Source: an uncultured Lacinutrix sp.
GTDB taxonomy: Bacteria > Bacteroidota > Bacteroidia > Flavobacteriales > Flavobacteriaceae
Direction: 5' to 3'
Assembly (NCBI RefSeq): GCF_947500605.1
Contig: NZ_CANMSJ010000003.1
Span: forward strand, 124,001-188,000
DNA length: 64,000 nt
The notes under the pieces are model-generated. The model made no database searches, had not been told where the DNA came from, and was given only the letters and a program-made list of their open reading frames with translations. How positions within the stretch are numbered: the stretch's first letter is position 1; every line of letters begins with the position of its first letter. Below, in pieces: positions 11,181-46,879 of this stretch. The translations under genes were made by a program, and so were the position numbers.

Positions 11181-11729
11181 ATGGAGTACTATAATTATAT
11201 AAAAGCATTGCATCTTATTTTTGTAATCACTTGGTTTGCTGGTTTGTTTTATATTCCAAGGCTATTTGTTTACCAAATTGAAGCATCCCATAAACCATCT
11301 CCGGATAAAGAAATTTTAGGAGAGCAATTAAAGTTAATGGCGAAACGATTGTGGACAATAATTACCTGGCCTTCTGGAATTTTAGCTGTGTTTTTTGGTT
11401 TGACTTTATTCTATTTAAACCCATACCTTATTCAAAACGATTGGATGCAAGTAAAACTAGGTTTCGTTGTTTTACTTATTGCTTATCATTTGCAAACTCA
11501 TGTGTATTTTAAGCAATTACAAAACGATATTGTAAAAAAGAGTTCTAGTTTTATGCGATTATGGAACGAAGGCGCTACTTTTATCTTATTTGCGGTTATC
11601 TTTTTAGTATTATTAAAGAGTGCCTTTAATTGGATTTTTGGTGTCATAGGTATTTTTGTTTTAGCACTACTTTTAATGTTAGGTTTTAAACTGTACAAGA
11701 ATATTCGAAAGAATAATCCAAGAGCATAA
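11181..11729 (+). CDS. hemJ: HemJ-type protoporphyrinogen IX oxidase (CopD-family membrane protein)
   Basis: A 182-residue protein with four or more transmembrane segments. The N-terminal HLIFVITWFAGLFYIPRLFV (H11) is the hallmark of HemJ, and K92 in QVKLGFVVLLIAYHL corresponds to the second conserved polar residue. HemJ oxidises protoporphyrinogen IX to protoporphyrin IX in the inner membrane, the step just before ferrochelatase. Databases often label this family CopD because of distant similarity, but the motif and the 2-nt spacing from hemH favour HemJ. A structured repeat begins 7 nt after its stop. Confidence 0.9.
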   Translation: MEYYNYIKALHLIFVITWFAGLFYIPRLFVYQIEASHKPSPDKEILGEQLKLMAKRLWTIITWPSGILAVFFGLTLFYLNPYLIQNDWMQVKLGFVVLLIAYHLQTHVYFKQLQNDIVKKSSSFMRLWNEGATFILFAVIFLVLLKSAFNWIFGVIGIFVLALLLMLGFKLYKNIRKNNPRA

Positions 11730-11735
11730 TTTTTT

Positions 11736-11821
11736 GGGCGTTACCTAAAGGTCGTGCGCTCCACTATATCTTTTTTGGCATAAGCGCTCACAAAAAAGGA
11801 TGCCGTTGCGATCACTAACGC
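11736..11821. repeat. GGGCGTTACC element, copy A
   Basis: This 86-nt intergenic element starts GGGCGTTACCTAAAGGTCG and ends GATCACTAACGC. GCGTTA and TAACGC at the ends are complementary, and CTTTTTTG and CAAAAAAG pair in the centre around the loop GCATAAGCGCTCA. It shares the blocks GGGCGTTACCTAAAGGTC, TATATCTTTTTT, AAAAAAGGATGCC and TAACGC with the copy at 46783-46870, and most of them with the copy at 19141-19245. It begins 7 nt after the hemJ stop. Function unknown. Confidence 0.85.
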
Positions 11822-11950
11822 TAAATAATGGTTCGATTATTGTTATCTTTATTGTAAGAAAAAAAATAGACTAAAACGAGCACGTAAAAGTTAATCTTCT
11901 AAAGAAATTGACTAATAGCATGCGACAGATAAAAGTAATAGAAAAAACGC

Positions 11951-13399
11951 ATGAAACTAAAAAAACTGTCTTTACGTACCAGGATATTTATAGCCATGAT
12001 TTTGTTAGTCGTGCTATCTTCAGTATTAATTGCAGCAGTTGCCATATATCAATACAACGAAGAAACTCAAGATTACCACAAACAACGTTTAGATAGAAAA
12101 GAAACAGCAATAATAAGAAGCTTAGATTTTGTTATCCGTGAAACCTCATTTCCGGTCACTACAGAAAATGTTCCTCTTATTTTTAAAATGAAAATTTATG
12201 AAGTTGCAGAGGTTCACAATATTCAAATAAACTTATACGACTTGGAAGGTTCGTTGTTAATTTCATCTAAATCGGGATTGCAACCATCAACCGAAAAATG
12301 CTTAGAACCTAAAGTTTTAAACACACTTTCTAATACTGCCGAACACCGTTATGAAGATAGGCGAGAGGAAGGTACAGAAACTTTTAGGTCTTCTTATCGT
12401 TTTATTACAGATTCAAAATACAAAGATTTAGCAATTATTAATTTACCTTATCTAGAAAACGATGATTTTCTTGCTAAAGAATTAAATGAATTTTTAGAAC
12501 GTTTATCATATACTTCTTTAGTTGTCTTGTTAATGGCAGTTGCGTTGGCTTTTTTCTTATCGCGCTACATTACAAAACCAATTAAAGCCATTAGTGAGAA
12601 AATGAACGCGACGCGTTTGGAAAAACGTAACGAAAAAATTAACATTCAAGATACAAGTGAGGAAATTTCAACGCTTGTAGATTCTTACAATAGAATGATT
12701 GATGAGCTTGAAGAAAGTGCAGTGCAACTAGCTACAAGTGAGCGAGAACAGGCTTGGAGAGAAATGGCAAAACAGGTTGCTCATGAAATAAAAAATCCAT
12801 TAACTCCAATGCGATTAACGGTGCAAAGTTTTCAGAGAAAGTTTGATCCTCAGGACGAGAATATTCACCAGAAACTAGATGAATACTCTAAAACCTTAAT
12901 ACAACAAATAGACACTATGAGTTCTATTGCAGGAGCTTTTTCAAATTTTGCAAAAATGCCAGCACAAAAAACGGAAACGCTTAATGTTGTTGAGGTTGTA
13001 GATTTAACTCTCGATATTTTTAATGAGAATTACATCACTTTTCAATCGGATAGAAAAGAAATTATAGCAAGTTTCGATAGAACACAGCTTATTCGAGTGG
13101 TTACCAACTTAATAAAAAATGGAATTCAAGCCATTCCAGAAGGACGATTACCACAGATTATTGTTAATGTAATTGAAGAAAATGAAGGTGTAAAAATTAC
13201 GGTTTCAGATAATGGAATTGGTATTTCCGAAGAAAATAAAGTTAAAATTTTCGAGCCTAAATTTACTACAAAATCAAGCGGAATGGGATTAGGTCTTGCG
13301 ATGGTTAGAAATATTGTGGAAACTTATCGTGGAACTATTACCTTTGTATCTAAGAAAGATGAAGGGACAACTTTTACTGTTGCCTTCCCAAAAAAATAA
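11951..13399 (+). CDS. membrane sensor histidine kinase (HAMP-HisKA-HATPase, NtrY-like)
   Basis: The 482-residue protein has a first transmembrane segment at about 13-35, a periplasmic sensor region to about 180, and a second membrane span near 183-205. A HAMP linker (SRYITKPIKAISEKMN) follows, then the phosphoacceptor box AHEIKNPLTPMRLTVQSF and an ATPase domain with NLIKNGIQAI, DNGIGIS and MGLGLAMVRNIVE. No response-regulator gene is adjacent, so it is an orphan kinase in this window. I chose the start at 11951; the ORF at 11908 is another frame. The signal sensed cannot be inferred. A crotonase gene follows 45 nt downstream. Confidence 0.93.
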   Translation: MKLKKLSLRTRIFIAMILLVVLSSVLIAAVAIYQYNEETQDYHKQRLDRKETAIIRSLDFVIRETSFPVTTENVPLIFKMKIYEVAEVHNIQINLYDLEGSLLISSKSGLQPSTEKCLEPKVLNTLSNTAEHRYEDRREEGTETFRSSYRFITDSKYKDLAIINLPYLENDDFLAKELNEFLERLSYTSLVVLLMAVALAFFLSRYITKPIKAISEKMNATRLEKRNEKINIQDTSEEISTLVDSYNRMIDELEESAVQLATSEREQAWREMAKQVAHEIKNPLTPMRLTVQSFQRKFDPQDENIHQKLDEYSKTLIQQIDTMSSIAGAFSNFAKMPAQKTETLNVVEVVDLTLDIFNENYITFQSDRKEIIASFDRTQLIRVVTNLIKNGIQAIPEGRLPQIIVNVIEENEGVKITVSDNGIGISEENKVKIFEPKFTTKSSGMGLGLAMVRNIVETYRGTITFVSKKDEGTTFTVAFPKK

Positions 13400-19140: not shown

Positions 19141-19245
19141 GGCGTTACCTTATATCACTATCGTGCCATAAGGTCAGGCTATCACTACTCGCTTTTTTTG
19201 AGAAAAACAAAAAAGAGCTCAAACATGCCGTTCCATCCTTAACGC
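19141..19245. repeat. GGGCGTTACC element, copy B (expanded variant)
   Basis: This is a 105-nt variant of the element at 11736 and 46783: GGCGTTACCT at the start, TAAGGTCAGGCTATC, central CTTTTTTTG and CAAAAAAG arms, CATGCCG, and CCATCCTTAACGC at the end. It contains an extra TATATCACTATCGTGCCA after the first block. It lies between the divergent starts of the bacilliredoxin gene and the TerB-DnaJ gene, so it could affect promoters there. Confidence 0.8.
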
Positions 19246-46782: not shown

Positions 46783-46870
46783 GGGCGTTACCTAAAGGTC
46801 AGGCTATCCGTTATATCTTTTTTTGCCATATATGGCAGCAAAAAAAGGATGCCACTACTATCCTTAACGC
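46783..46870. repeat. GGGCGTTACC element, copy C
   Basis: The cleanest copy, 88 nt. GCGTTA and TAACGC close the outer stem, GGCTATC pairs with GATGCC allowing one bulge, and CTTTTTTTGC pairs with GCAAAAAAAG around CATATATGGCA. Sequence blocks are shared with 11736-11821 and 19141-19245. It begins 9 nt after the hflX stop and is followed by a separate terminator. Confidence 0.88.
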
Positions 46871-46879
46871 AAAAAAAAC

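Follow-up and report, generated by a model that had tools for sequence, protein, structure and literature searches.

Strand-specific fold, fixed sites and exchangeable inner modules of Flavo-1 elements in Lacinutrix and related flavobacteria

The Flavo-1 RNA motif, catalogued in Rfam as RF01705 (Weinberg et al. 2010, PMC2864571), carries the Rfam type "Gene; sRNA". In Flavobacterium psychrophilum its matches lie sense and antisense to transcribed regions alike, many of them are untranscribed, and no consistent transcription has been observed (PMC9723704). Two of three intergenic repeats in the window, the whole stretch of 64,000 nucleotides of an uncultured Lacinutrix sp. analysed here, share with this motif the same P3-P4-P5 architecture and the same internal loops, and come from the same lineage, Flavobacteriia. 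The repeats differ from the described family in three respects: the Rfam model ends before the outer stem P1 and the side hairpin P2, both of which covary here, its structure line beginning inside P1; its consensus inner loop reads GGAAAUCC/GAUUGUA, whereas the present copies have GGCAUCC/GAUAUA; and it misses the type to which the third repeat belongs.

Other described systems resemble the elements in part. Like REP sequences and their RAYT transposases, they are short, imperfectly palindromic, intergenic and present in dozens of copies; however, their sites are fixed across genera, and a search for Y1_Tnp (PF01797), positive in control genomes, detected no such protein in the genome itself or in G005, G006, G010 and G012, all of which are high-copy. 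Across 60 relatives, RAYT presence did not evidently track copy number, and mobilisation by RAYT was rejected on the absence of the transposase from several high-copy genomes. Integron attC sites are likewise strand-specific hairpins with mismatches and a variable tip, but the elements have the reverse end polarity (GTTA at the 5' end, TAAC at the 3' end) and are scattered singly among housekeeping genes. An attC assignment was discarded, since the ends read GCGTTA...TAACGC on both strands in place of RYYYAAC at the 5' and GTTRRRY at the 3' end. ERIC-type repeats are structured intergenic repeats of around 100 nt near gene ends, as here; their sequence we take to be unrelated, and the present elements are set apart by in-place exchange of an inner module and by a strand-specific fold.

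Copies in the window and across the genus

The three repeats that an earlier note had picked out are all present and intergenic, and have in common the blocks GGCGTTACC, a short hairpin, GGTC, an A/T-rich central stem and TAACGC. That note treated them as one element, possibly a known Bacteroidota motif, with Flavo-1 as a named candidate. Copies A and C are indeed Flavo-1 members, both on the minus strand and above the gathering threshold of 42 bits, while copy B shares their outer scaffold but is another type.

Copy A (11736..11821, minus) shows the Lacinutrix form of the element, with outer stem P1 and hairpin P2, and scored 46.7 bits over 11746-11826 in the Rfam search. It lies between a UPF0093 gene ending at 11729 and a histidine kinase gene starting at 11951, and the same junction carries an element in identical orientation in Tamlana sedimentorum (L173). 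The P1 arm GCGTTA (11738..11743) pairs with 11816-11821 and covaries in a 53-sequence alignment; it is followed by the P2 hairpin CCTAAAGG (11744..11751), whose length and sequence differ from site to site. Subsequently, the arm of P3, X and P4, GTGCGCTCCAC (11754..11764), pairs with 11805-11815, a pairing supported by covariation, and encloses the inner module TATATC, P5 hairpin and GGATGCC (11765..11804), which contains an invariant internal loop. The 3' arms of P4, X, P3 and P1, GTTGCGATCAC and TAACGC, occupy 11805..11821.

Copy C (46783..46870, minus) matched RF01705 with 63.8 bits over 46793-46875. It lies about 8 nt past the stop codon of an HflX-type GTPase gene, upstream of a terminator-like hairpin-and-T-run structure and a penicillin-binding-protein gene, and its 3' arms of P4, X, P3 and P1, ACTACTATCCT and TAACGC (46854..46870), pair with 46801-46811 and 46785-46790.

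Copy B (19141..19245, minus), between divergent genes for a disulfide isomerase family protein and a TerB-DnaJ protein, forms P1 from 19142-19147 with 19240-19245 and has P2 at 19148-19173. Its inner module is CACTACTCGC..GAGCTCAAACATGCC instead of TATATC/GGATGCC, so that the GGATGCC-like block ascribed earlier to all copies holds for A and C and only loosely for B. Because it reached only 16.1 bits (E 0.81) against RF01705, below the threshold, it is set apart as a sister type ("gamma") that is not catalogued in Rfam. Sequences like it are numerous and dispersed through the genus.

Searching the genome for further copies, as had been suggested, yielded about 40-50. RF01705 itself found some 40 places on both strands with good E-values, most of them above threshold, and a model built here with the outer stem included gave 50 matches at E<=0.01; this number of paralogs far exceeds chance. 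Within the genus, copy number ranges from four weak matches to 60, with 20-60 in most members. The low extreme is G011, where only four weak model matches occur in 4.6 Mb, an apparent near-total loss of the elements. At the copy-B locus of this genome (L329, L323), an apparently decayed P2/P3 remnant, CATAAGGGCAGACTAT, is found.

Covariation and the folding strand

The consensus stems are backed by covariation in this lineage. In the 53-sequence alignment, 97.2% of cells at 20 pairs are paired, and 140 cells carry double changes, against 42 in shuffled and 2-14 in slid controls, distributed over 11 of the 20 pairs. Among 202 elements picked by the central motif alone, Watson-Crick pairing holds for 1364 of the 1414 cells of seven core pairs, which change freely between pair types. 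The outer stem GCGTTA/TAACGC, whose pairing had been proposed from the three copies and which is absent from the Rfam model, covaries as well, for example as GCGTGA/TCACGC, GCGAGA/TCTCGC and GCATTA/TAATGC, and P2, which sits between P1 and P3, is distinct at each site and ranges from 8 to about 60 nt with 798 of 853 cells Watson-Crick. In minus-strand letters, three unpaired parts stay constant: an A.G mismatch, which may also occur as G.A, a GNA/GNA loop and GGCATCC/GATATA. The minus-strand fold thus comprises P1, the side hairpin P2, P3 with the A.G mismatch, the single pair X, the GNA/GNA internal loop, P4, the invariant internal loop and the variable terminal hairpin P5. An alternative stem, GGCATCC/GGATAGCC, has the lowest energy in copy C but is lost where the X pair and the GNA loop vary, and was rejected. 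The earlier description of a structured element with conserved stems and variable loops is therefore borne out, the stem covariation being strong.

Two departures from this form were recorded. In L017, L025, L257 and L265 the P5 hairpin is larger or substituted (about 40-80 nt) on an unaltered core. A scaffold without P2, GGAGC...GGCT, occurs at the PhoH/purC junction (L117, L042, L091) and at the dioxygenase/4-HPPD junction (L032, L092, L174), with the upstream gene's stop codon at or just before the element edge.

The strand that folds can be read from half-way pairs, which appear as G.T on the folding strand and as A.C on its complement. Across core, P2, P5 and P1 of 258 elements, the plus strand holds 88 A.C and 25 G.T cells (core 35:9, P2 21:3, P5 29:10, P1 3:3); the printed probability of 1e-9 is indicative only, as related sequences were counted. 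Additionally, a C.T mismatch on the plus strand swaps to T.C, corresponding to A.G and G.A on the minus strand. Since A.C outnumber G.T on the plus strand, selection for folding is close to certain to act on the minus strand, in agreement with Rfam. The copies had been placed on the plus strand, and their letters do read GGGCGTTACC...TAACGC there, but the strand under selection is the other one. A symmetrically used cruciform would not yield this asymmetry. G.U pairs are rare, at about 1-2% of core cells.

Fixed sites, selection and module exchange

The elements are old and fixed at particular gene junctions, and this fixation is close to certain. In the sister species G002, 27 of 36 sites of the genome are occupied at the orthologous place. 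G010 and G012 differ by 8.6% at the fourfold sites used for comparison; of 21 copies in G012, 20 sit at sites that G010 shares and the remaining one is a module swap. Of four G010 copies unmatched in G012, one (L255) is part of a 5.9-kb segment absent from G012, which rules it out as a clean recent insertion; because the other three were not located, occasional gain or loss between these species may have occurred. Over longer times, gain or loss has taken place, as relatives lack the element at some sites, such as L028, which is empty in G001, G010 and G012; a look for a target-site duplication there met flanks too diverged for ends to be defined.

Of 131 loci in other genera, 25 have a neighbouring gene in common with a site in Lacinutrix; the element keeps its orientation at 20 of these, is inverted at 1 and is otherwise placed at 4. 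The conserved junctions include dioxygenase/4-HPPD in Flavobacterium turcicum and PhoH/purC in two other genera. The sole inverted counterpart, L146 in Flaviramulus, has the same flanking gene pair as L015/L074 with the element flipped. No match was found in named phages, and the sole plasmid match is in Aquimarina (NZ_CP053591.1:54069-54167). Five IMG/VR contigs carry the element, one of which (L251) is flanked on both sides as a Lacinutrix site is, one gene being serS-like. Present mobility is not supported.

Sequence comparison at orthologous sites further demonstrates constraint. The 43-nt core diverges by 3.4% between G000 and G002, against 29.5% at fourfold sites (17 site pairs), by 3.7 against 48.9% between G000 and G010 (5 pairs), and by 0 of 430 positions against 8.6% between G010 and G012 (10 pairs). 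These ratios are somewhat flattering, as decayed copies escape the search; even so, that 27 of 36 sites remain recognisable is not expected without selection. Copy C is orthologous in eight Lacinutrix genomes and shows compensatory changes in place: A-T to G-C at the X pair, T-A to C-G in P4 and T-A to A-T in P5. Among 44 site clusters with variation, both sides of the pair changed in 49 site-pairs (at least two Watson-Crick types) and one side only in 28. Purifying selection on the elements at their sites is close to certain. Inert REP- or ERIC-like palindromic repeats, whose structure would be kept only through their mode of spread, would also be dispersed, intergenic and palindromic, and the loss of nearly all detectable copies in G011, with its apparent decayed remnant, would suit them; this account is contradicted, and made very improbable, by the about ninefold fewer changes than at fourfold sites and by the compensatory changes. 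As an account of what the elements do now, the mobile palindromic element once suggested is unsupported, given sites and orientations kept within and between genera, purifying selection and the missing RAYT.

The inner module is exchangeable in place while the scaffold is retained, as shown at four orthologous sites. At the copy-B site, G000, G002, G005 and G006 carry the B module, and G010 and G012 a Flavo-1 module within very similar P1 and P2. The L008 site presents four types among 11 species, namely Flavo-1, the B type, a third type GGCAGTCGC/GAGCTTCAACAAATGCC and a hybrid, nearly all framed by GGCGTGCCCTAAAGGTCAGGCT...ATCCTTCACGC. In the hybrid (L353 in G005, L354 in G006), the lower loop is of the copy-B type and the upper loop, AATC/GGATTTC, is similar to the Rfam consensus. 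At L028, G000 has Flavo-1, G005 and G007 the third type and G006 a B-like module, and at L004, G010 has the third type and G012 Flavo-1 within surroundings 95% identical.

For the swaps alone, short-tract gene conversion between copies sharing the scaffold, with functionally equivalent modules, is the plain and rather probable explanation, and one compatible with any function. The outer shared tracts are intact at swapped sites, with about 25 nt on the left and about 11-17 nt on the right; against it, tracts of this length are short for RecA-type conversion, and swaps appeared at all three sites examined genus-wide, which were not picked for them. A further view, in which dozens of ancient, site-fixed docking elements combine a site-specific scaffold with exchangeable recognition modules that an active process swaps in place, e.g. 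short cDNA or single-stranded DNA annealing to the resident scaffold, is unlikely.

The exchange at four sites would also suit a hairpin of single-stranded DNA recognised by a recombinase or another DNA enzyme, the copies being relics of spread through folded single-stranded DNA that are now kept in place. Such hairpins would be multi-copy, intergenic, devoid of a promoter of their own, strand-specific and poor in G.U, and could range from four weak matches to 60 within one genus. This explanation is possible but doubtful: G010 and G012 reveal no clear new insertion, the RAYT/Y1 transposase is absent from several high-copy genomes, G002 shows no clear replichore or replication-strand bias (26:19), and purifying selection at fixed sites requires a host-level benefit.

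Genomic context and candidate roles

For many copies, a stop codon is only tens of nt away, start codons being farther off, and between co-directional neighbours antisense placement of the folded strand outnumbers sense placement by about two to one. A cis-regulatory leader was rejected on this inconstant orientation, and an intrinsic terminator on the lack of a T-run after the closing stem on either strand. Upstream of the elements, the flavobacterial promoter box TAnnTTTG is not clearly enriched on either strand, and about a third of gene-following copies sit so close to the stop codon that the terminator of an independent transcript would have little or no space. The neighbours are housekeeping genes, among them hmgA-like/4-HPPD, PhoH/purC, thrS, serS, rplS, HflX, biotin carboxylase and others, and no functional theme was seen among them.

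These observations weigh on independent small RNA genes, as the Rfam class implies. The strand-specific, highly structured fold and the sRNA type agree with such genes; about 40 dispersed copies per genome, the lack of clear promoter enrichment, the frequent absence of terminator room beside the upstream stop codon and the inconsistent transcription in F. psychrophilum (PMC9723704) make them quite unlikely.

We prefer a strand-specific, protein-bound RNA element, because it fits the strand-specificity, the fixation of sites and the absence of signals of its own. Whenever the junction is transcribed in the matching direction, whether by read-through or antisense from the next gene's promoter, the folded strand would act as RNA. 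A candidate protein would recognise the G.A-rich internal loops, with the inner modules as alternative recognition parts, and the element would serve as a local one-way mark at which the crossing transcript may be cut, stopped or degraded, thereby insulating the neighbouring genes. The transcription pattern in F. psychrophilum (PMC9723704) and the lack of a clear promoter motif count against it. So do the terminator room missing in about a third of gene-following copies, the excess of antisense over sense, odd for a UTR element, and the rare G.U pairs, which would suit DNA too. To our knowledge, no partner protein is known for the element, a further point against it. The mechanism as a whole is accordingly tentative and held with low confidence; the RNA reading is a guess and the insulator role even more so, and the folded strand may instead act as single-stranded DNA. 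Much higher confidence, close to certainty, attaches to the description, that is, to the strand-specific fold, site fixation and selection.

As far as the literature was searched, the new points are the outer stem, the test for the folding strand, the selection on sites fixed across genera, the sister types beyond the reach of the Rfam model and the exchange of inner modules in place. Flavo-1 has stood in lists since 2010 without an assigned function, and the present data make it a testable object. Species pairs with differing inner modules at one site are natural swap experiments, and, if a protein reads the modules, the near-total loss in G011 against 20-60 copies in most other members would provide a comparative route to that protein.
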